Below the pieces are notes generated by a model that was not told the DNA's origin, did not search any database, and saw only the letters and a list, made by a program, of their open reading frames with translations. Below, piece by piece: positions 894-16,844 of a DNA stretch of 54,730 nucleotides (within the stretch, counting starts at the first letter, position 1; each line of letters opens with the position of its first letter). A program made the position numbers and the translations under genes. This stretch comes from an uncultured Synergistales bacterium (GTDB lineage Bacteria; Synergistota; Synergistia; Synergistales; Aminobacteriaceae): NCBI GenBank assembly GCA_905235735.1, contig CAJOMU010000011.1, positions 1 to 54,730 of the forward strand. The letters are read 5' to 3'.

Positions 894-3800
894 CTATATG
901 ACTACATCAAGCTGACGAAATAATTCAGATATTTTCTTGTGATAGTCTTCTATGCTCATTCTAGTGCTGTTGTATTCCTGCTCGATTCGTTCACATTCAC
1001 TAACAATCTGCTGTTGTATATCCATAGGCGGAACTGGAATCTTTATGTTTCTTATTGTCTCTATTGATAGTTCTATCTGACCACTTGCACCGTTCGCCAT
1101 TTGTTCAAGAGTTTTAAATCCTATTCCAATGCCAAGAACAAAGAGAACATAACCTGACAGAACTTCATCTTTCGGCCTGAAAATCGTTATATGATTATCT
1201 GCCGCGTAATCACCCTCAAAATCAAACATTGTTACACGTCCAGCAGTCCCTACACCTGTAGAGTTAATGAGTATGTCTCCTCTTTGCAACTTACGTTCAT
1301 CCAGTACAAAATCAGAAGCAAGATAATATTTCTTCGCGAAATCAAATTTATGAAATCCGCGTGCCTGACCAGACTTTATTATCTGTACGTTTGAATTGCC
1401 GTATATAGGAGATCTGCCTCTCTTCAAAAGAACACTTAAATCTGAAAGCCTGTATAACGGATATTTGCTTTCAAGTTCAAATCTCTTCTGTATACTCAAT
1501 CGTATAGCCTTGTTGAATTTTAAGAGGGAAAAATCAATCATTGAACTCAGATTCACAATGCTGGCATACCTCGCATTGTCCTCCGTCATCACTATGTCTT
1601 CATCTCCAAATGACTGCCTCACTACATGTGCAAGTGTCCCTTCAGCATCACGGTTATCATTCTCGTACAGCTTCCCTCCTCTCACCGAATACTGAATCCC
1701 TTCTGCTCCCTTCCTGTTGCTCCAGTCATATCCGAGAAATTCCTTCTGTCCCGCATTATCAGACGGTGAAAGTATCACTACCGTTCGCTGTTTGTACGTC
1801 ATTCCATAATAGAATAACTTCTCAGATTCATTCTTCATCGCATACTCATAGAAACGTATGATGTATTCGTCTGGTCTCTCTTCCTTCAGCTTTTGGGATT
1901 CCTTCTTCGCATTGAACGCTTCAATATACATCCGAAAGTATTCATTCAGTTCTTCAGGGTCTGCTTGGCCATCAGTGAACATCTTCCAGTCTTCTTGTGT
2001 CAGACCTTGCACTTCAAGATAACCTTCAAGTATGTATCTGTCTTCCCAGTCTGAAAGATTACTGCCTGAAAGTATCGCATTCACACTATCCTTCATCAAT
2101 TTGAATCTCTCAGGAGAAAACGCATATCTCTCAAGAAACATCACAACCGTATTTGTTCCTGTTGCTCCGAACGTCTTGCTCCCAAACTGCACAATCGCTC
2201 GTATGATGAACTTCTTCAGTATCTCCTCACGCGCTCCTATGTAACACGCTGAATCATTGCTCAGTATGCTTGAAGGTAATATCACTGCCGCTATTCCTCC
2301 GGGCTTCAAGAGTTGGGCTATTCGTTCAACGAACAAAACTTCTATCTCTGAACTGTTCGCTGTGAGTGCATTGAACAGATTGAAATCATTGTTTCTGAGT
2401 TTCAAATGCTGCATGAATGATGCTATCGAGTACGGCGGATTTGCTGTCAGAATATCAAACGTTCCCGGCTTTATCTGTTCACTGTTCTCAAGTCCATCTC
2501 CAAAGATTATATTGCTCTCTCCTGCTCCGTTCATGAACATTGATACCTTCGATACCCTCGCTAACCTGTAATCCTTCTCAATCCCAAATATACAGTCTCT
2601 CGCCCATGCATTGCTGTTATCGTCAGGGTTCTCTATGAACTTGTTTATTGCTTCAACCGCCTCCGTCAGGAAGTGTCCTGCTCCACATGCATAATCTATC
2701 ACTCTTGGCCATGTCTTATATCTCTTCAATGGAAGACTGTCCCATATGAAACGCGTTATAGGAAGGGGCGTAAAGAACTGTCCTTCGTTCTGTTTGAATC
2801 CCTTATCGAGCAATTGTTCAAATAAATCTCCGAGTACCTGATGATTCGATGTGTGCACTATCTGATACTTCGCGAATAACTGTACAACTTCAGCTAATAT
2901 CTTTCCGTTCTGATAGAACAGAGGCTCATTATGTACATCGAGAAATGCAAAATCATTGTTTGTAAAGAATTTCAGTTTTCTTATCGTCTCTTCTAAGTTC
3001 CTGATTGCCTCTTCACGTCTCTGTCCGGTGTAGTTCATGAATAACTCTCTTGGATATTCTGAAGATATGTACGTTATCTCTTCATGCATGAAATCACGCA
3101 TTCCCTCAGTGTATAATCTCTGAAGCCTGTCCTGTAATGATTCATATGTGTCTATCCTGTGCTTATACTGGAAATCTACTTCATCATCTTCATCTTTCGT
3201 TATCTCGTCTACAAGTTTGCATATGAACAATGCAATCAGTCTGTTGAATGCGTTCTCCTTATCGCTCACGTTATTATGTCTCAGTATCTCCTCGAAGCTG
3301 TTCACGATTCTGTTCTTTCCGTCCTCAAGAAATGTTTGGAGGTCTCGTTTACGTAACGGCTTTAATCCGATGTCATATGCAGATGAATCCTCCGAAAATA
3401 TTATGTCGTCATGAATCTCACGGTTATATGTCTCATTCCAGACTTCATATTTCTTCTTCGCACTGTCCGCATTAACGTAGAGCTTTATGCTGTCGTCCTG
3501 TTCATACCGCATTTTCAGATTCGCATCATCTGAACAGTTTATCGCAGGCGATCTGTATTCTATCGTTCCGTCGTCTTTGATGTCTGACGCGTACAGCACA
3601 AGCCACCTGCATGAACTCTCCTGCTGCCAGTATGAGAATAACTGTGCTCCGTCATTCAATGTGTCCTTCATGGCCTTCTCGAATTCTTTTCCCCACGTCT
3701 TGCACTCAACAATGAAGAGTACGCTCCCTGATTCATCATAGACGCATATATCTGCACGTCCGCCTTTCGGAACATGGCCAAGCTGCCACTGCTTTTCGAG

Positions 3801-4073
3801 TTCAATATGTTCATGATGATAATTTTTCATCAGAAGACGGTACACGCATTCAAAGACAACAAAATTTTCATTCGCATCAAATGAAACGTTACGGTCATGG
3901 CCTCGAATCGAAACAGGATATATCAGCCTGCGTTTTATTATGTCTGCCTGAAGTCCTGAAGACTCATGCGAATATATTCCGTTATTCAATGTGAAACCCG
4001 AAGACCTGAGAAATTTTTCAAAGTTTCCTGAATTTATCACGTTATCGCCTCCGTCTGGTAATATAATATTCAT
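894..4073 (-). CDS. single-chain restriction-modification-specificity protein (type IIG / type I-like fusion)
   Basis: A 1059-residue protein with three parts. Residues about 70-130 carry a PD-(D/E)XK nuclease of HsdR-N type: D108 in GGRADICVYD, then E123 and K125 in IVECKTWGKE. Residues about 410-620 are an N6-adenine methyltransferase with GQFFTP (431-436), motif I YACGAGHF (461-468) and motif IV NPPY (545-548). Residues about 880-1059 form an HsdS-like target recognition domain with a final coiled-coil (PPMDIQQQIVSECERIEQEY). Restriction, modification and specificity in one chain is the type IIG arrangement. No separate hsd genes are near. The start is only 25 bp from the divergent nnrE ORF, so its promoter probably lies inside nnrE. 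Known for the family: the DNA is methylated on one adenine per strand. The recognition site cannot be read from the sequence. Confidence 0.88.
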   Translation of the reverse strand: MNIILPDGGDNVINSGNFEKFLRSSGFTLNNGIYSHESSGLQADIIKRRLIYPVSIRGHDRNVSFDANENFVVFECVYRLLMKNYHHEHIELEKQWQLGHVPKGGRADICVYDESGSVLFIVECKTWGKEFEKAMKDTLNDGAQLFSYWQQESSCRWLVLYASDIKDDGTIEYRSPAINCSDDANLKMRYEQDDSIKLYVNADSAKKKYEVWNETYNREIHDDIIFSEDSSAYDIGLKPLRKRDLQTFLEDGKNRIVNSFEEILRHNNVSDKENAFNRLIALFICKLVDEITKDEDDEVDFQYKHRIDTYESLQDRLQRLYTEGMRDFMHEEITYISSEYPRELFMNYTGQRREEAIRNLEETIRKLKFFTNNDFAFLDVHNEPLFYQNGKILAEVVQLFAKYQIVHTSNHQVLGDLFEQLLDKGFKQNEGQFFTPLPITRFIWDSLPLKRYKTWPRVIDYACGAGHFLTEAVEAINKFIENPDDNSNAWARDCIFGIEKDYRLARVSKVSMFMNGAGESNIIFGDGLENSEQIKPGTFDILTANPPYSIASFMQHLKLRNNDFNLFNALTANSSEIEVLFVERIAQLLKPGGIAAVILPSSILSNDSACYIGAREEILKKFIIRAIVQFGSKTFGATGTNTVVMFLERYAFSPERFKLMKDSVNAILSGSNLSDWEDRYILEGYLEVQGLTQEDWKMFTDGQADPEELNEYFRMYIEAFNAKKESQKLKEERPDEYIIRFYEYAMKNESEKLFYYGMTYKQRTVVILSPSDNAGQKEFLGYDWSNRKGAEGIQYSVRGGKLYENDNRDAEGTLAHVVRQSFGDEDIVMTEDNARYASIVNLSSMIDFSLLKFNKAIRLSIQKRFELESKYPLYRLSDLSVLLKRGRSPIYGNSNVQIIKSGQARGFHKFDFAKKYYLASDFVLDERKLQRGDILINSTGVGTAGRVTMFDFEGDYAADNHITIFRPKDEVLSGYVLFVLGIGIGFKTLEQMANGASGQIELSIETIRNIKIPVPPMDIQQQIVSECERIEQEYNSTRMSIEDYHKKISELFRQLDVVI

Positions 4074-4109: not shown

Positions 4110-4835
4110 ATGCCGCCTGACATTGAAGAAATTGAACACGAACTCGAAGCCTTCTATGATCCTGAAGACTTTCATCGTGAGGTCGTCTATTATGATGTCC
4201 ATTCACCCGAATCAGTATCACGTGATGAAGCCCGTAATGCCGATAAACGTGCAATAGAGACCTTCGGAATCCCAAGCATATTATTGATGGAGAACGCTGC
4301 GCTCGCTGTTGTACGTGAGGTTAAAGAGTATGCGGTATTCGCTGTCATTTGTTCACCTGGAAGCAACGGAGGAGACGGTTTAGCAATTGCACGTCATCTA
4401 TGCATTCTGGGTAAAGATGTTCGCGTGTACATCGTCGGAGACCCGAAGAAAGGAAGTGAGGATTTCAAGACGAATCTAAAAATTATGAGCAAACTTGCAC
4501 CTGAAGTTCTGAACACGATCAATGATGAAAATTTTGAAGAGTTCGAGAGCGCACTTAAAGGATGTGAGACATGCATTGATGCAATTTTTGGAACTGGTCT
4601 TAACCGTCCTGTTGAAGGGATATATGCACGCGTCATTGAGGCCATGAATACTTTCGCAACTCACATAACAAGCGTTGATATTCCTTCGGGACTTGACTGC
4701 GATTCAGGTGAACCTCTCGGTACATGCATTCATGCAACGAAGACCATAACGTTCCACAGAATGAAGAAGGCATTGGACATTTCCCCGCAATATGGAGGAG
4801 ATGTTACAGTATCATACATAGGAATTCCAGACTAA
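4110..4835 (+). CDS. nnrE: NAD(P)H-hydrate epimerase
   Basis: A 241-residue protein of the YjeF N-terminal family. Visible motifs are DEARNADKRAIETFGIP, LLMENAA, the glycine loop GSNGGDGLAIARHL and DAIFGTGLNRP, then SVDIPSGLDCDSG. It epimerises damaged NAD(P)H hydrates so that a dehydratase can repair them. Only the epimerase half is present; the ADP-dependent dehydratase (NnrD) domain often fused behind it is missing. I chose the ATG at 4110; a GTG at 4098 overlaps the AGGAG itself. The downstream secreted-protein gene begins 17 bp after its stop and may be cotranscribed. Confidence 0.92.
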   Translation: MPPDIEEIEHELEAFYDPEDFHREVVYYDVHSPESVSRDEARNADKRAIETFGIPSILLMENAALAVVREVKEYAVFAVICSPGSNGGDGLAIARHLCILGKDVRVYIVGDPKKGSEDFKTNLKIMSKLAPEVLNTINDENFEEFESALKGCETCIDAIFGTGLNRPVEGIYARVIEAMNTFATHITSVDIPSGLDCDSGEPLGTCIHATKTITFHRMKKALDISPQYGGDVTVSYIGIPD

Positions 4836-4852
4836 AATATTCAGGAGATGAA

Positions 4853-7588
4853 ATGATGAAAAAGTTTCTCGCATTAATTTTCCTGCTGTCCATGTGCAAT
4901 ATCTCATGGGGAGCACAGCAATATGATCCGTATAATTTATATTTCTGGTCAAATGATTTATCAACAGAATCAAATGTGTACAGGAATTACGGCAACAGCA
5001 GCTACAATTTCTTCTATCAGCTCAGAGACGTAACAGGTGCATCACGTAATGACAGGGTTGCAGGGCCTCAATGGTTCGCAACGGTCTATGAGAATTACTA
5101 CTACAATGTTTTAGGCGAAGAAAACACAAATGAGAATCGTGGTTTGTATCGCAGGACAATGGGCGGTGAAATCCCTGATGTTAGGTTCTATGCTGTCGGT
5201 GATCTTCTCGACGGATTCAATTTCATCTTTGCAGAAGAACCTCAGCCTTATAGTTCCATATGGCGCAATTACGTTGACCCCAACATTTATGATGAATACC
5301 CTGACCCGTTAGAATCATTCTGTCTGGTCATCACTAACGGACAAGGTGAGTTCAATTTGTCATTAGGGAATCCATACGCGAGACATTTCCCGTTCTGGTG
5401 GTGGAATACAGGAACAGGATCATCGACTGGAGCAAAGTGGTGGCAGGAAGGATATAATGACTGGAGAACTAGTTCACATAAAACACTTGAGCCTATTGAA
5501 TATATTTACTCGGACGGTGTGATATATTCACGCAATGCAAACGGAAGATATATTCAGACGTATAGAATTTCAACAGATGTTTCAGGCGATACAGAGATAA
5601 CTGGTTATCATATTCTGGATACGTCCGGCAATGTTGCTTACACTCTCTCAGGTGATATTGATGACAGCGTACATTACTGGTGCAATCCTGAAGGCAATAT
5701 TGCGTGGATAACCAAAGGCGATGACAAAGTGTATGATTCTGATAACAACATAGCATACACGCTCGAAACGGATATTAACGGAGACATTTATATATGTGCA
5801 GTGAGAGAAATATATGAAGAGGTAGCCTTCTCCGATTTTGATGAAAATTACACATTCTCTGTCAATCCGTCAGGAGAACGTGCAGTATTATCCGGGAATT
5901 ATCTTGATGCAAACGTAAGGGTAAGAGGAATCGATTCAGCGAATTACGGAAGTACGCTCGGATATATGACATTCAGACAGAGAGCAAGTTTTGCAACGGG
6001 CTACAGCAACTACAGAGAGTCAACCTTAATTCCTATGGTGATTGCAAACGTATCAAACGGAAATGCTTCGGATAACCCGTTAATGTTCGACATGATAGTA
6101 TCTGACCAGAATGATAATGTAGTGAACAGAATCAAATTCACATGGGACGCTCAAAGAGATATGCCTGACCAGGATTTGGGGACGTTCTTCATGATGAAAC
6201 AGTTCAATCAGACGACCAGCCCGACATACAAACTTGAAACCCGAATCACTAACAGGACAGGCACACGTTATGAGCTGTACAGATATGATGAAATCAATTC
6301 GAGGCCAAGCGACAGCAATTACAGAGATAATTACAGACAAATAATGCCGGACTACTGGAAGTATGACCTTACAGCGGATATGTATGGCACATTGCCGGAT
6401 TATTTCCTTCTTGATGCTCATAGTCAGATTGCTCCGGGACTCGTTACGGTGTACAAGAACAACGTAGGCGAAGGATACAGGACGATAGACACTCAGTATG
6501 ATACGAGTGAATCATTCAGGCTATACGAATATTCAACGACATCACCGAAAAATCTCAGGCTGAATTATAAGCGCGTTGCAGGAATGACGACAGCAGAAGA
6601 CGGAGTGCCTTACACATACAATGAGATGCCAGCAAGTTCAAACAGCAAGGTAGTCGTGCAGGGGTTCAATATGCAGTTTGCAGATGTTACTCAGAATGAA
6701 AACGAAACTGAATATCAGCTGACTAATCTTATGGGTAAAGCTCCGGCAATGGTTCCGGCAGAACTGAGTACGGTTATGCCTCTTGAAGTGTATATAAGGT
6801 CTTCAGCATTGAACGCTTTCTTAATAAGCATAGATGTACCTGTTGAAGATGATGCAGATTTCGCTAATATCGTGTCCTATGATGAAATAGTTTCAGAAGA
6901 ACCATCTGTGCCTACACCAAATACTTCCGGCGATACATCTACGACATCAACAGTGAAAGCATCAGCAGAATATACATCGGCAAGAGCAGCATTACAGCCC
7001 ATATCGGTGAGATTGAGAATACCAAGACAGTACAGGCTCGTTAATGAAATTTGGAACGAATTGGATTCTGCTTCAAATTCACGGCAGTTATTCGAGAGAT
7101 TCGCAAATCATGGAGCGATATGGGTACGTTCAGCCGCAACAAGAGAACAGGATACGAATTTGTTCACAGCAATCAACAACAGAGGAAGCAATTTAGGTGT
7201 TAGTGCATCTGACTGCATAAGAGCATTCCTGTACAATGATGAACTCTATCTTGATTTCATAGTCTTCATTGCTGACGCTAAGAGCATTAGAGCTGACAGA
7301 ACTGCATTCATTGAAGTGTTCAAAGATGATGATGTTCCTTATATCCTGATTGGTGACGGAGCTATCGATAAGAAATGGAACTTAACATTTTTCGTCGATG
7401 CCACAGGTGATAATCCTGACACAAGAACTCCTGATGTACCAGATACACCAAGTACACCAGATACACCCTCAACACCCGAAACACCAACTGACGGGAATAA
7501 ATCATCAGGCAGTGGCGGAGGTGGAGGCTGTAACTCCGCAATACTCGGAGCGATTGCACTTGTGATTCTGTTTGCACGTAAGCGTTAA
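4853..7588 (+). CDS. secreted protein with Synergist-CTERM sorting signal
   Basis: About 911 residues. The start at 4853 has AGGAG 5 bases upstream and opens with a signal peptide (MMKKFLALIFLLSMCNISWG, cleavage near GA-QQ). The large middle part is Asn/Tyr/Asp-rich and likely beta-structured, with repeated TDVSGDTEITGYHILDTSGN-type motifs; I recognise no enzymatic domain. The end has a Pro/Thr linker (TPDVPDTPSTPDTPSTPETP), a Ser/Gly-rich stretch, GGGGGCNS, a hydrophobic helix (AILGAIALVILFA) and RKR. This tripartite end is the Synergist-CTERM signal, thought to be processed at the Cys and to anchor or sort the protein at the envelope. The role is therefore a surface or secreted protein of unknown function. 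Confidence 0.85.
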   Translation: MMKKFLALIFLLSMCNISWGAQQYDPYNLYFWSNDLSTESNVYRNYGNSSYNFFYQLRDVTGASRNDRVAGPQWFATVYENYYYNVLGEENTNENRGLYRRTMGGEIPDVRFYAVGDLLDGFNFIFAEEPQPYSSIWRNYVDPNIYDEYPDPLESFCLVITNGQGEFNLSLGNPYARHFPFWWWNTGTGSSTGAKWWQEGYNDWRTSSHKTLEPIEYIYSDGVIYSRNANGRYIQTYRISTDVSGDTEITGYHILDTSGNVAYTLSGDIDDSVHYWCNPEGNIAWITKGDDKVYDSDNNIAYTLETDINGDIYICAVREIYEEVAFSDFDENYTFSVNPSGERAVLSGNYLDANVRVRGIDSANYGSTLGYMTFRQRASFATGYSNYRESTLIPMVIANVSNGNASDNPLMFDMIVSDQNDNVVNRIKFTWDAQRDMPDQDLGTFFMMKQFNQTTSPTYKLETRITNRTGTRYELYRYDEINSRPSDSNYRDNYRQIMPDYWKYDLTADMYGTLPDYFLLDAHSQIAPGLVTVYKNNVGEGYRTIDTQYDTSESFRLYEYSTTSPKNLRLNYKRVAGMTTAEDGVPYTYNEMPASSNSKVVVQGFNMQFADVTQNENETEYQLTNLMGKAPAMVPAELSTVMPLEVYIRSSALNAFLISIDVPVEDDADFANIVSYDEIVSEEPSVPTPNTSGDTSTTSTVKASAEYTSARAALQPISVRLRIPRQYRLVNEIWNELDSASNSRQLFERFANHGAIWVRSAATREQDTNLFTAINNRGSNLGVSASDCIRAFLYNDELYLDFIVFIADAKSIRADRTAFIEVFKDDDVPYILIGDGAIDKKWNLTFFVDATGDNPDTRTPDVPDTPSTPDTPSTPETPTDGNKSSGSGGGGGCNSAILGAIALVILFARKR

Positions 7589-11721: not shown

Positions 11722-12525
11722 GTGATTTTTACGAGTCGGTTTTCTAATCCAGAACTTGCGACTAGAAAATATACGGTAGTCGGGATTGTGCGAGGATTGC
11801 CACGTTTCGGCTTGAAATATGAGCTTGCTGGTAATATTTATGATATAGCTCCGCCAAGAGAGTTGTTTCACATATACAATCGTGAGGAGTTTACACCTCC
11901 GTATATGGCACACTTAGACCGTGTAGGGATTGATAAGATAAAAGCTCAGTTGCAGAAGTATCTTGATATAGGCAAAGATGTTGTGTTGTGCTGTTATGAA
12001 GATGTCCGAAAGCCAGATGAATGGTGCCATAGATTAGTGTTTGCATCTTGGTGGGAGCAACGTACAGGACTGACAATTCCTGAATTAGAAGATACTTCGC
12101 TAATTAAGGGCAAAGTTGTTGCAAGTACCAGAACGCAGGTACATGAAGACAGAACATTTGACCTGCATCTTGAACACTCGGAGAAGTTGCGTATATGGTC
12201 AGTCTATTCTCTCTGGAATGAAAACGGAGAGTGGCATGGTGGCGATATGTTTTATAAAGTTGACCAAGCCACAGGAAAAAAGACAAGAATCGCTGACGCA
12301 GTAGCTCAAGATTTATTGACGCAGGGTAAAGCCGAGTTAGTTCAGGATGAAGACTCAAAAGCAAGAATACGGTTTGTACTTTTTGACGAGCCAGCTAGTA
12401 AAGCCTATTGGCTGGCAAAGGATGGCACGGAACGTGAGATGAATTTGGAGACAGCTCTCAAGTTCATTATGGAAAACAAAGCACGTATTCAAGACATCCG
12501 AATAGGACAGAAGCCTGAAAACTAA
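11722..12525 (+). CDS. DUF488-like protein with C-terminal extension
   Basis: 267 residues from the GTG at 11722 (GGGAGG 8 bases upstream). Residues 1-115 look like the DUF488 fold: MIFTSRFSNPELATRKYTVV, GIVRGLPRF, LAP-like IAPPREL, and the diagnostic late motif VVLCCYED (87-94) with WCHRLVFASW (101-110), giving paired Cys and His-Arg. The function of DUF488 proteins is not settled. The C-terminal 130 residues (SLWNENGEWHGGDMFYKV, DEPASKAYWLAKDGTEREM) are beta-rich and unrecognised. It precedes the tRNA-like element, a terminator and the methyltransferase fusion, which suggests a shared role with them. Confidence 0.65.
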   Translation: MIFTSRFSNPELATRKYTVVGIVRGLPRFGLKYELAGNIYDIAPPRELFHIYNREEFTPPYMAHLDRVGIDKIKAQLQKYLDIGKDVVLCCYEDVRKPDEWCHRLVFASWWEQRTGLTIPELEDTSLIKGKVVASTRTQVHEDRTFDLHLEHSEKLRIWSVYSLWNENGEWHGGDMFYKVDQATGKKTRIADAVAQDLLTQGKAELVQDEDSKARIRFVLFDEPASKAYWLAKDGTEREMNLETALKFIMENKARIQDIRIGQKPEN

Positions 12526-12528
12526 ATA

Positions 12529-12605
12529 TCCGCTGGTAACTTAGTGTTAGAGTACCCAGCTCTTTACTGGGAAGACGCAGTGTTAGATTCCTGCCCAGCG
12601 GACCA
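12529..12605 (+). tRNA. non-canonical tRNA-Lys(CTT)-like element with encoded CCA
   Basis: A full cloverleaf can be drawn. Acceptor 12529-12536 pairs with 12595-12602 (8 bp), then CCA. TA spacer. D stem ACTT/GAGT (12539-12542, 12550-12553) with a 7-nt loop. Anticodon stem CCCAG/CTGGG (12555-12559, 12567-12571) with loop CTCTTTA, anticodon CTT at 12562-12564. Variable AAGAC. T stem GCAG/CTGC (12577-12580, 12591-12594), 4 bp with a 10-nt loop. Odd points: 8+4 instead of 7+5, no GG in the D loop, A where C56 is expected, and T rather than a purine after the anticodon. It is followed by a terminator. It may be a phage tRNA, a decayed tRNA, or a tRNA mimic. Confidence 0.55.
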
Positions 12606-12640
12606 ATGCTTATATAAGGGGATAAAGGAAAATGTGATAA

Positions 12641-12674
12641 CCTCGACCAATTTTCTAGTCGGGGTTTTTGTTTT
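12641..12674 (+). terminator. rho-independent terminator after the tRNA-like element
   Basis: CCTCGAC at 12641-12647 pairs with GTCGGGG at 12658-12664 (one T-G pair), followed by TTTTTGTTTT. It ends the short leading transcript before the methyltransferase gene. Confidence 0.8.
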
Positions 12675-12697
12675 ATGTATGATATAAGGAGGGTTGT

Positions 12698-14125
12698 ATG
12701 GTCAAGTTTCAAAATCCCGGAGCATTTTTTCTTGGAACGCTCGTACCAGATGAACAGAAATTTTTGAAGACACTCATTGTGAACGCCGTCCGTAACGGAT
12801 ATACAAAATTTGTCGAGCCTTGCGCTGGAGCTTTTGCGATGTCCCATTTGGCCGTGCAGTCAGGTTTCAAACCGAGCCAGATTGAAGCGTCTGATGTTTC
12901 TATGTTTACATCGATTATGGGCTATGCAATAACCGGCCAATCATTGGAGGAGTTGCAGTTAAAAGCTACGGGTTTCACAGATGAAGAACTACTTGACCCT
13001 GCGATTGCCCTGTACGCTTGGAAGTATCTGAATATGGCGAGAAAAGCAGGCAAGGATTACTTCTATAACTACATTGTGGATATGGAACAACGGCGCGATG
13101 AGCATGTACGTTCTCTAAGAGAACAGATTGAACGGGCAAAGTCTCTTCTTGCTGGCATGAGTTACCGCCCTCTGGATATGTGGAAGCATGTAAATGAAGT
13201 TATAGACGACCCACATGCTTTAGTAATTGCGAACCCACCGACGTATCTTGCTGGTTTTGAAAAGTATTACGATACTGGTGGAAATATGACGTGGCATGAA
13301 CCAGAGTACAGTATGTTTGATCCGACTACGGGACTTAAGGAGTTTATGGATTTGCTGAAGAATGCGCGATGTCTCGTCATGTGCTATGAAGAGAATGCTC
13401 CAGGCCAAACAGCGGGCGAACCAGTTTTCGCTAGATATAATGTACGAAATGGCATCAATACGTATCTCACCACAAATAGACCCGATGAAGCTGTTACGTT
13501 GGCTAAGGGTAAGAAAATTAGCCGTCGTAGCGAAAAAGATTTGTTGCCATTAGATTGCCCAATGTTACCGATTGATTTCGAGATTAAGGAGAATATGGAC
13601 ATTCAGGTTTGCCAAATAAAAATAGAATCAGCACGGTATTATCGTAAGCTGTGGACACATAACTTTATCGGTTCTAAAGCTTCGCTTAACTTCGCTATAT
13701 TCATTGATAGAAAGATTGCAGGTGTGTTTGGTCTGGATAAAACTGCTTTTATAATGGGAGCTTTTGGCGGCTCAATCTCAGATTATGTTTTCCTGGTATA
13801 TGGCATGACTGTTAAGCATAGTGTTTATCGGCTGAATCGTCTGGTGACCATGCTTGCGCAAAATCGACATTTTATTATGGAGCTTTGTACTGACCTTGAA
13901 CAAGAAAAAGTGCGAATGCTAAAAACTGTGCAGATGACGAAGTATCCTGAAGCAAAAGAAATGCGAGGTATTATGAAGTTGATACGGCGTGAAAAAGATA
14001 CGAAGTTCGGTTATAGGCTTACCTATGCCTCAGAGCTAAAAGACAGAACTGAAAAAGATACACTTGCTGAATGGCTGAGGAGAGAAACAAAATGGAGAAC
14101 AGAACGAGCGAAAGTAAAAAGATAG
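12698..14125 (+). CDS. adenine-specific DNA methyltransferase fused to a GNAT/Mom-like domain
   Basis: 475 residues with GGAGGG before the ATG. Residues 35-185 are a class I methyltransferase: motif I FVEPCAGAF (38-46), acidic loop EASDVS, and NPPTY (179-183) in place of NPPY, the form seen in phage antirestriction-type adenine methylases. A helical insert (115-160) lies between. Residues about 305-450 look like an acyltransferase fold: ARYYRKLWTHNFIGSKASLN, FAIFIDRKIAGVFGL, SDYVFLVYGM and YRLNRLVTML, recalling the Mom branch of GNATs. Inference: it modifies adenine in phage DNA, perhaps beyond methylation. The methylase part is firm; the GNAT part is a by-eye judgement. A ParB-like gene overlaps its 3' end. 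Confidence 0.75.
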   Translation: MVKFQNPGAFFLGTLVPDEQKFLKTLIVNAVRNGYTKFVEPCAGAFAMSHLAVQSGFKPSQIEASDVSMFTSIMGYAITGQSLEELQLKATGFTDEELLDPAIALYAWKYLNMARKAGKDYFYNYIVDMEQRRDEHVRSLREQIERAKSLLAGMSYRPLDMWKHVNEVIDDPHALVIANPPTYLAGFEKYYDTGGNMTWHEPEYSMFDPTTGLKEFMDLLKNARCLVMCYEENAPGQTAGEPVFARYNVRNGINTYLTTNRPDEAVTLAKGKKISRRSEKDLLPLDCPMLPIDFEIKENMDIQVCQIKIESARYYRKLWTHNFIGSKASLNFAIFIDRKIAGVFGLDKTAFIMGAFGGSISDYVFLVYGMTVKHSVYRLNRLVTMLAQNRHFIMELCTDLEQEKVRMLKTVQMTKYPEAKEMRGIMKLIRREKDTKFGYRLTYASELKDRTEKDTLAEWLRRETKWRTERAKVKR

Positions 14126-15012
14126 AATATCAGACTATTGCAGATATGGGGTCAGGGTTGATAATTGCTAAAGTAGCCGCCAGCAATATCCGCGAACAAG
14201 ACATCAACGCCAGAATTATGAAAACCGAAATGCAGAAGCAGTTGACTGACAATATCAAGAAGCGCGGCCAGCTTGAGTCATTGCCGTTCTGTGCTTTAAC
14301 ACAGAATGATACGCGCATAGAAATAATATCAGGACATCATAGAATCTGCTCAGGTAAAGAAGCAGGTCTTAAAGAGTTTTATGTGATTTTAGATGTGAGC
14401 GGGTTAAATCGTTCTAAAATAACAGCAAAGCAAATAGCGCATAATGCCATAGCTGGATTTGATGACCAGTCCACACTGAAAGAATTAGTAAAGTTCCTAG
14501 ATGATGTAGATGACATGATTGAATCTTATGCTGGCAAAGATATGCTTGCAGAGCTGAATGAACATATTGACAAGTATATTAGTCCGGTTATGAATTTTGA
14601 CTGGAAGAATATCGCGCTAATGTTTTTACCGCATCAGATAGACGACCTGAACAAGTTAGTTGAAGCTGTGAAACGCCTATCTCCAGATTATATAGGTGTG
14701 TCAGGTATTGAAGAATATAAGCCGTTTCTTGAAGCGTTAGCAAAATTTCAGAATTTCGCTGATATTAAGAATATTGGTGCGGCAGTACATGCTATGACGA
14801 AGCTGACTTTGCAAGCGATGGATGAAGCAGGTTATACAGGCGAAGAAGAGTGGGTACAGCTTACGACGCTATTCGGCTCTGGCGCAGTTTCCAAAGAGAC
14901 AGCAGAAATCATCTCTAACGCAGTTAAGAAAATGATTGATGCTGGGGAAATCAGCTTAAAGAACAAGTTAGATTTTATAAGAATTTTAGCTGAAAAATAT
15001 TTAGGTGATTGA
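14092..15012 (+). CDS. ParB-like nuclease-domain protein
   Basis: About 306 residues from the ATG at 14092 (AGGAG 9 bases upstream; an in-frame ATG at 14071 lies further inside the methyltransferase). Residues 20-120 form a ParB/sulfiredoxin-like domain: NIREQDINARI, QLTDNIKKRGQLESLPFCAL and the core ISGHHRICSGKEAGL. The remaining two thirds is helical and unrecognised. In phages such domains sit next to DNA methylases and modification enzymes or near terminase; both hold here, with the methylase upstream and terminase downstream, so it may link modification and packaging. It is not a plasmid-partition ParB, because no ParA is near. Confidence 0.75.
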   Translation: MENRTSESKKIEYQTIADMGSGLIIAKVAASNIREQDINARIMKTEMQKQLTDNIKKRGQLESLPFCALTQNDTRIEIISGHHRICSGKEAGLKEFYVILDVSGLNRSKITAKQIAHNAIAGFDDQSTLKELVKFLDDVDDMIESYAGKDMLAELNEHIDKYISPVMNFDWKNIALMFLPHQIDDLNKLVEAVKRLSPDYIGVSGIEEYKPFLEALAKFQNFADIKNIGAAVHAMTKLTLQAMDEAGYTGEEEWVQLTTLFGSGAVSKETAEIISNAVKKMIDAGEISLKNKLDFIRILAEKYLGD

Positions 15013-15013
15013 G

Positions 15014-15490
15014 GTGGCAACAGGTGTTTATCAGGATTGGATAGAAGGTGAAGGCTTAGAGATGATTTGCAAATGGGCAGGATTAGGATGGACTGACCAG
15101 CAAATCATCAGAGCTATGGGAATTAAAGAACGTACCTTCTACATGTGGCAGAAAAAGTTTCCAGAATTTCACGAAGCACTGAAAGTTGCGAAGAGAAATC
15201 CCAATATCGAAATAGAGACTTCGATGATTGATCTTGCCTGTGGAAAGGCATACGTTGAAGAAACGAAATCCGTGATTGATCCGAAAACAAGTAGGATTAT
15301 TAAAGTCGAGAGGATCAAAAAGCAGATACCGCCTAATCCAACCATGCTGATTTTCTTAGCAAAGAATAGAATGCGAGATAGATATCGCGACTATTGCCCG
15401 GTTGATGACAGCGAGCAAATCAACGAGGATGTTCAGCAAGAAGTCCAGATTTACCTACCTGACAATGGGAGTGAAGATGATGATTCTTAA
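15014..15490 (+). CDS. terminase small subunit-like protein
   Basis: About 158 residues. I use GTG 15014 (AGGTGA 5 bases upstream); GTG 15005 overlaps the ParB-like stop and is possible. The N-terminal half has a resolvase-type helix-turn-helix (CKWAGLGWTDQQIIRAMGIK, RTFYMWQKKFPEF), then a KSVID basic stretch, PNPTMLIFLAKNRMRDRYRD and an acidic tail. Position directly before the large terminase and the HTH plus C-terminal oligomer region fit the small subunit, which recognises the packaging site on phage DNA. Confidence 0.8.
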   Translation: MATGVYQDWIEGEGLEMICKWAGLGWTDQQIIRAMGIKERTFYMWQKKFPEFHEALKVAKRNPNIEIETSMIDLACGKAYVEETKSVIDPKTSRIIKVERIKKQIPPNPTMLIFLAKNRMRDRYRDYCPVDDSEQINEDVQQEVQIYLPDNGSEDDDS

Positions 15491-16844
15491 ACCGCAGAAA
15501 GGCCCGCAAGAACAGTTCTTAGCAACGAGGGCTGACATCGCTATTTATGGTGGTGCAGCAGGCGGCGGGAAGACGTATGCTCTGCTACTTGAGCCGCTTC
15601 GCCATATGAATGTGGAAGGTTACAGCGCAACAATTTTTCGTAAGAATGCAACGCAAATCACTATTGACGGTGGTTTACTCGATGAGAGTATGCAGATATA
15701 CGGACTTCTGCGAAGCGCGGTTTACAAGGCAAGTCCTAAGCCGCATTGGACGTTCAACGGCAAAGCAAGAGTGTCATTTATGCATATTGATGGTGACAGT
15801 GATTTACCGAAGTGGCAAGGCTCGCAAATTTGCTTTTTGGGCTTTGATGAACTGTGTCATTTCTCGGAAGTACAATTCTTCTATATGCTTTCAAGAAATC
15901 GTTCGACCTGCGGTGTGAAGCCGTATGTAAGAGCCACTTGCAACCCTGATGTAGATAGCTGGGTTGCTAAGTTCATTACTTGGTGGATTGACCAAGAAAC
16001 AGGCTATCCGATACCTGAGAGGTCAGGTGTCTTACGATACTTCTGTCGAGATAATGCCAAAGTGAACTGGGGAGACAGTCCAGAGGAATTATCAAAGAAA
16101 TACGGTGTTAAACCGGAGTTATGTAAAAGTGTAACATTCATAGCGTCCAGCATCTATGACAATAAAATTCTTCTGGAGCGTGATCCCAGTTATTTGGCAA
16201 ACCTTCACGGTCTCAGCCTTGTGGAGAGAGAACGCTTACTCAAAGGTAATTGGAAAATCCGGCCTGCTGCTGGGTTCTACTTTAAGCGGTTGAAAGTCGG
16301 TGAAATTCTTCCAGCAATCCCCGCAGATATTGTTCGGTGGGTCAGAGCTTGGGACTTGGCCGCGACTGTATCAAGCGAAGACAAAGACAGTGCTTGTACA
16401 GCAGGAGTGTTGATGGGTAAGCGTGAGAACGGGCGGATATTCATAGCAGATGTCATTAATGTTCGCGAAAATGGTGCTGACGTTCGCCAGCTTATTCTGA
16501 ACACTGCACGCAGTGATAATGCACTCTGTGGCAATGTGATAGTTCGTATTCCGCAAGACCCTGGACAAGCAGGTAAGGATCAAGCACAGAGCTTTGTACG
16601 TATGCTTGGTGGTTTTAGGGTATCAGTCGCACTTGAAAGCGGCAACAAGGTAACACGTGCTGAACCTTTTTCTTCGCAATGGCTTGTCGGGAATGTCGAT
16701 GTGAAAGAAGCTGAGTGGAATGATGATTATTTCAGACAGCTTGAAAATTTTCCTACTGGCAAGCTAAAAGATATGGTGGACGCTTCAGCAAACGCTTATC
16801 TGGAACTTGAAAACGAAAAGCCAGCGTTTGGTTTTTCTTTCTGA
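15477..16844 (+). CDS. terminase large subunit
   Basis: About 455 residues from ATG 15477, which overlaps the small-subunit end by 14 bp and has GGGAG 5 bases upstream. The ATPase part has Walker A GGAAGGGKTYALLL (25-38) and Walker B ICFLGFDELCHF. The C-terminal RNase H-like nuclease part has VRAWDLAATV with the first catalytic Asp, IPQDPGQAGKDQAQ and the late MVDASANAY Asp. It pumps DNA into the prohead and cuts the concatemer. Confidence 0.95.
   Translation: MMILKPQKGPQEQFLATRADIAIYGGAAGGGKTYALLLEPLRHMNVEGYSATIFRKNATQITIDGGLLDESMQIYGLLRSAVYKASPKPHWTFNGKARVSFMHIDGDSDLPKWQGSQICFLGFDELCHFSEVQFFYMLSRNRSTCGVKPYVRATCNPDVDSWVAKFITWWIDQETGYPIPERSGVLRYFCRDNAKVNWGDSPEELSKKYGVKPELCKSVTFIASSIYDNKILLERDPSYLANLHGLSLVERERLLKGNWKIRPAAGFYFKRLKVGEILPAIPADIVRWVRAWDLAATVSSEDKDSACTAGVLMGKRENGRIFIADVINVRENGADVRQLILNTARSDNALCGNVIVRIPQDPGQAGKDQAQSFVRMLGGFRVSVALESGNKVTRAEPFSSQWLVGNVDVKEAEWNDDYFRQLENFPTGKLKDMVDASANAYLELENEKPAFGFSF

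Follow-up and report, generated by a model that had tools for sequence, protein, structure and literature searches.

The window analysed here, a stretch of 54,730 nucleotides on contig CAJOMU010000011.1 of an uncultured Synergistales bacterium (assembly GCA_905235735.1), carries four elements in order on the + strand, directly ahead of the terminase genes: a gene for a DUF488-like protein of 267 amino acids (11722..12525), a transfer RNA (tRNA)-like gene of the lysine type with anticodon CUU (12530..12605), a gene for a 475-amino-acid fusion of a DAM-like and a GNAT domain, the predicted modification enzyme (12698..14125), and a gene for a ParB-like protein, the usual downstream neighbour (14071..15012). 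A first-pass annotation had taken this layout for a DNA base-modification module and had ventured that the acyltransferase domain takes an aminoacyl group from the odd tRNA. The same four-element arrangement was found again in distant phages and thus reflects more than chance.

The tRNA-like gene is matched by the Rfam tRNA model at 12530-12602, with A73 and an encoded CCA following, and its score of 46.7 bits (cut-off 29) is the lowest among the genome's 45 tRNA matches; ARAGORN at default settings missed the gene. Its anticodon loop, CUCUUUA, gives CUU, which would be read as lysine, and the host genome already encodes tRNA-Lys with anticodons CTT and TTT. U33 is present, the T stem holds an extra pyrimidine and the 19-56 pair is U-A (U19, A56; TTAGATT), and the combination of a regular T arm, U33, GG18-19 and TTC expected of an elongator tRNA-Lys was not found. 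Folding places a hairpin directly 3' of the tRNA (12640..12665, + strand), followed by T-rich sequence and resembling a terminator; such a hairpin was seen in all 15 loci folded, and despite it a terminator scan working by its built-in rule returned none in this region.

Relatives of the fusion protein, gathered from IMG/VR, GTDB genomes, phage records and plasmids (two queries with actinophage proteins returned no IMG/VR relatives), include clade I, of the window type, and clade II, of the Taptic, Clawz and Peribacillus type, which the tree separates with a support of 0.92. Of the 40 clade I loci with usable upstream sequence, 39 have a tRNA ahead of the fusion gene, at distances of 22 bases to 1.9 kb, and the single miss (L052) is truncated, with 456 bases upstream; loci whose sequence starts inside or at the gene (L018, L024, L067-L070) were left out of this count, and some of the tRNAs were detected by Rfam alone or by ARAGORN at relaxed settings. 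Many of these loci are near-duplicates, and the distinct tRNA sequences number 27. Exactly one tRNA match exceeded the cut-off in the whole record for 15 clade I IMG/VR contigs and for the phages FP_Brigit and ValentiniPuff. A regular seven-nucleotide anticodon loop is present in 25 of the distinct clade I tRNAs, of which 24 have CUU (lysine) and one has UGG (proline, L051); the latter carries A73, G72, G35, G36 and G37 of the bacterial proline set, and motif IV of its enzyme reads NLPTY. Two clade I tRNAs, at L050 (1054-1128) and L037 (4355-4426), have six-nucleotide anticodon loops and U73. Enterobacterial relatives showed no linked tRNA by the methods used, and a locus from the same genus as the window (L083, 5537-6578) is a degraded remnant with a 111-amino-acid GNAT fragment, a DUF488 open reading frame (ORF) and no tRNA.

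In clade II, where 80 loci were kept out of 306 relatives and 75 of the 80 extend at least some 400 bases upstream, a same-strand tRNA lies within 1.5 kb upstream in 35 of the 75. An isotype was assigned for 32 of these 35, and it was glycine in all 32 (26 UCC, 5 ACC and 1 CCC), the other three being odd; these counts come from the ARAGORN-based survey, because the feature-table parser misreads some anticodons (it gives NCC for 44 of 51, and ARAGORN calls those of L115 and L168 glycine). Only five other tRNAs occur in the 799 kb of clade II sequence. A tRNA-Gly is annotated in six mycobacteriophages, and glycine-like tRNAs were found in Gordonia phages and Peribacillus. Rfam missed the Gordonia tRNAs and found none in the whole genomes of Taptic, Clawz and Soos; that of Taptic was recovered by ARAGORN and those of Gordonia phages by a custom model. 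With the custom model, 49 of the 80 loci and three Gordonia phages gave a tRNA, a rise that is in part built into the model; a few of these tRNAs lie downstream, on the opposite strand or farther off than 1.5 kb. As a control, the model scored host tRNA-Gly at 55-61 bits and the remaining host tRNAs at 15-45 bits. The tRNA-Gly genes with anticodon ACC adjoin the fusion gene at L130, L164, L167, L177 and L179, and this anticodon is unusual for tRNA-Gly in bacteria.

The linked tRNAs of both clades often lack features that elongators keep. An extra T-stem nucleotide is present in 24 of the 25 distinct lysine- or proline-type tRNAs of clade I, which retain the D-loop GG in 6, TTC at the start of the T loop in 16 and U33 in 21; among the 51 distinct clade II tRNAs, U33 is kept in 32, TTC in 30 and GG in 16. 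By comparison, the window's genome has 44 other tRNAs, and each of them keeps U33, GTTC[AG]A and GG. The stems of the linked tRNAs pair almost throughout: 542 of 546 stem cells are paired in 26 clade I-type tRNAs and 96.5% in 26 clade II tRNAs, where 126 cells changed on both sides as compared to 30 in shuffles and none of 500 shuffles reached the observed covariation score. Paired and covarying stems indicate that these tRNA stems are under selection. Acceptor pairs 1-3 never vary in the clade II alignment, and the invariant columns include G1-C72, C2-G71, G3-C70, U73, C35 and C36, plus C56 and C61, although the invariance of C35 and C36 is partly built in by the selection of rows with ARAGORN, from which the acceptor part received no such favour. 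The bacterial glycine identity set, as given in PMC9976931 (G1-C72, C2-G71, G3-C70, U73, C35 and C36), lies entirely within these invariant columns. A precedent is described in Staphylococcus aureus, where, according to PMC4052509, three tRNA-Gly isoacceptors linked to the synthesis of the cell wall have GG18-19 replaced and carry elements that bind EF-Tu weakly, the dedicated tRNA-Gly thus likewise being without GG18-19. The sequence features of the phage tRNAs therefore suggest molecules unfit for translation yet fit for charging. A tRNA can also mark an integration site, a role that we rejected by inference, the tRNA being complete, diverse, covarying and located at the module.

Phage tRNAs are common, and one could envision that these merely aid translation or hitch-hike with the module while the GNAT domain uses an acyl-CoA (acyl-coenzyme A), as is usually assumed for Mom of phage Mu. 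We regard this as improbable: the tRNAs of clade II are of a single isotype (32 of 32 glycine), the U33, elbow and T-arm features are lost, and the window's host has both lysine tRNAs of its own. Alternatively, because tRNA-Lys is a known target of anticodon nucleases, the tRNA could be a decoy or spare against host enzymes such as PARIS and PrrC, unrelated to the fusion protein; a viral tRNA that neutralises PARIS is named in the title of a cited reference. However, the same gene family carries glycine in the sister clade and proline in one relative, and the anticodon loops are often malformed, which leaves the decoy very improbable.

The fusion protein is a clear member of two Pfam families, DAM-like-phage1 (PF22555; E 8.1e-78, 261.9 bits) over residues 11-277 (12728..13528) and GNAT-phage-like (PF22559; E 3e-46, 157.7 bits) over residues 301-463 (13598..14086). 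Both scores lie far over the gathering cut-off of 27, so the protein families are already known; NCBIfam names neither domain, and a PDB sequence search gave no match. The motifs reported in the first-pass annotation, NPPTY, FAIFIDRKIAGVFGL and YRLNRLVTML, are all present, NPPTY being motif IV of the DAM-like domain. In an AlphaFold2 model built from 28 sequences (mean predicted local distance difference test (pLDDT) score 83.3), E. coli Dam (4rtn) is the first structural match of residues 4-264 (Z 13.3 over 202 aligned residues), and phage Mu Mom (PDB 8bv8) ranks first by Foldseek for the full model (E 1.1e-4), with Mom listed at Z 9.6 for residues 296-449. When the GNAT domain is modelled alone (pLDDT 88.1), its matches are GNATs, and Mom ranks fourth by Foldseek and third by Z (9.6 over 141 residues). 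The C-terminal domain is thus a GNAT, as had been proposed, by both Pfam and predicted structure, and the refuting outcome named in the first-pass annotation, a fold other than GNAT, did not materialise. The FemX fold is a tandem of GNAT-like domains; no Fem structure was among the structural matches listed, which excludes nothing. A predicted fold shared with Dam, GNATs or Mom is no proof of function.

The canonical CoA motif of GNATs, [QR]xxGx[GA], is missing from the motif region of all 16 clade I proteins, including that of the window, and in 85 of 86 clade II proteins, the lone protein that has it being a row that looks frame-shifted. This argues against an acyl-CoA donor, although for Mom the donor is usually given as acyl-CoA (the jumbo-phage paper PMC7824862 describes an acyl-CoA such as glycyl-CoA). 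Mom also differs in standing alone, with no fused DAM-like domain. The fused GNAT likewise sets the phage protein apart from E. coli Dam, whose fold its N-terminal domain shares, as does the state of motif IV in the sister clade: the Asn is kept in all 16 clade I proteins (NPPT or NLPT), whereas none of the 86 clade II proteins has N or D at the catalytic position. In clade II, this makes the DAM-like domain more probably a platform that presents the base than a methylase. The conserved NPPT or NLPT of clade I could still be taken to mean that the protein is simply an N6-adenine methylase, its GNAT domain being vestigial and its neighbourhood incidental, but clade II conserves the GNAT motif TTAFT..P.S.KY in most rows while dispensing with the catalytic residue, and we give this idea scarcely any credence. 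Another possibility is that enzyme and tRNA do cooperate and that the acceptor is RNA or protein, for example an aminoacylated or methylated host RNA or the tRNA itself, since the DAM-like domain also matches the folds of the RNA adenine methylases Erm38, RlmJ and KsgA. The list of matches is, however, headed by E. coli Dam, DpnM and T4 Dam, and the ParB and terminase neighbours together with the Mom match indicate DNA, so that an RNA or protein acceptor seems unlikely.

The DUF488 gene product matches DUF488-N3a below the Pfam threshold (E 0.0044) and phrog_2450 well (E 9.4e-21), and falls in a DUF488 profile with the motif CYE...EWCHR; we take it to belong to the rhodanese-like superfamily. 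Its C-terminal extension (residues 171-252; 12232-12477) weakly resembles LPD5, under the Pfam cut-off. DUF488 is linked to the module: of 52 related loci searched, 50 have it, the two without it lying at sequence ends; ValentiniPuff has it too, and among 80 further clade II loci it was found in 44 (29 of the 50 with about 5 kb upstream). An anti-correlation of tRNA and DUF488 sought in 80 clade II loci was not clear-cut (both 24, tRNA only 25, DUF488 only 20, neither 11). As a guess, DUF488 might act as a thiol relay or in a tRNA quality step. The ParB-like gene product has a weak ParB_N match (E 0.013) and strong matches to phrog_7405 (E 1.3e-84) and several further ParB-like phrogs; of the 80 clade II loci, 56 have a ParB gene directly downstream of the fusion gene, and the isolate and plasmid records viewed also annotate one at that place, apart from those that label the neighbour just hypothetical. 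Its role may be, again by guesswork, loading on DNA before packaging. The terminase small subunit (15005..15490, + strand; phrog_309, E 4.2e-38) and large subunit (15402..16844, + strand; PF03237 and PF17289, the start being the mechanical first start of the ORF) follow. Elsewhere in the window, the gene at 894-4073 on the - strand encodes a large fused methyltransferase with Pfam matches to N6_Mtase, Methylase_S and HSDR_N_2, which bears out its earlier description as type IIG-like, and an ORF of 954 amino acids (4724-7588, + strand) has no Pfam match. In FP_Brigit, a gene for S-adenosylmethionine synthetase lies upstream of the module (L026 1993-3171).

We thus propose, with a probability of about 0.65, that the locus is a phage module for DNA modification whose own tRNA carries an amino acid and feeds a GNAT transfer to DNA adenine. 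A host synthetase would charge the phage tRNA, with lysine in the window, glycine in the sister clade and, in one relative, proline. Changes in its T stem, elbow and anticodon loop would make it a poor elongator, and it would therefore be channelled to the fusion protein's GNAT domain. The DAM-like domain would bind DNA and present an adenine, and the GNAT domain would move the aminoacyl group from the tRNA onto the adenine amino group, giving a bulky base that would shield phage DNA from restriction. The adduct on Mu adenine has the mass of a glycyl group, and the product expected in the glycine clade would match Mu N6-carbamoylmethyl-adenine in mass, possibly through rearrangement of an N6-glycyl adduct; an intramolecular shift could effect this conversion. 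The earlier guess that the aminoacyl group comes from the odd tRNA has gained strong comparative support, from the linkage of tRNA and gene, the match of isotype to clade, the decay of elongator features and the retention of identity elements; the transfer itself we put forward as an inference.

Several observations weigh against this proposal. Of the listed bacterial lysine determinants A73, U34, U35 and U36, the window tRNA has A73, U35 and U36 and carries C34, so that its CUU anticodon is without U34, and its body carries G72, like tRNA-Pro; lysine charging is uncertain because of this C34 and G72 body. The tRNAs of L050 and ValentiniPuff, with six-nucleotide anticodon loops, have no assignable isotype. 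No tRNA was found near L071-73, L079, L082 and L083, nor, by ARAGORN or the custom model, in 31 of the 80 clade II loci, and these would need a host tRNA; the 31 include most of a subclade close to Taptic (L116-L131), which keeps DUF488 and mostly has no tRNA by either method. The Z score of 9.6 for Mom is level with those of ordinary acetyl-CoA GNATs, and hhalign found no significant similarity between the profile of the GNAT domain and the sequence of Mom (probability 0.35%). The row selection behind the invariant C35 and C36 counts on the same side.

The proposed use of a charged tRNA diverted from translation is shared with FemXAB, MprF and other aminoacyl-tRNA-dependent transferases; in contrast to the phage enzyme, their acceptors are cell wall, lipid or protein. 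Since both domains of the fusion are already named by Pfam, with names silent on tRNA, the new element is the tRNA link. It is not mentioned in the accessible portions of PMC12839542 or PMC5512222, and a literature search, with subscription papers and most preprints outside its reach, found no DNA modification fed by aminoacyl-tRNA. Taken together, the comparison suggests that many unrelated phages decorate their DNA with amino acids brought by a dedicated tRNA. We would give even odds to a bolder form, in which translation-incompetent tRNAs serve solely to deliver glycine, lysine or proline to adenine through the DAM-GNAT enzyme and Mu Mom also draws its glycine-like adduct from Gly-tRNA. If the proposal is true, the adaptor of the genetic code would be tied to DNA chemistry, a hint would be gained at the source of Mu's decades-old adenine adduct, and DNA bearing lysine and proline would be predicted, which could be tested in phages already isolated.

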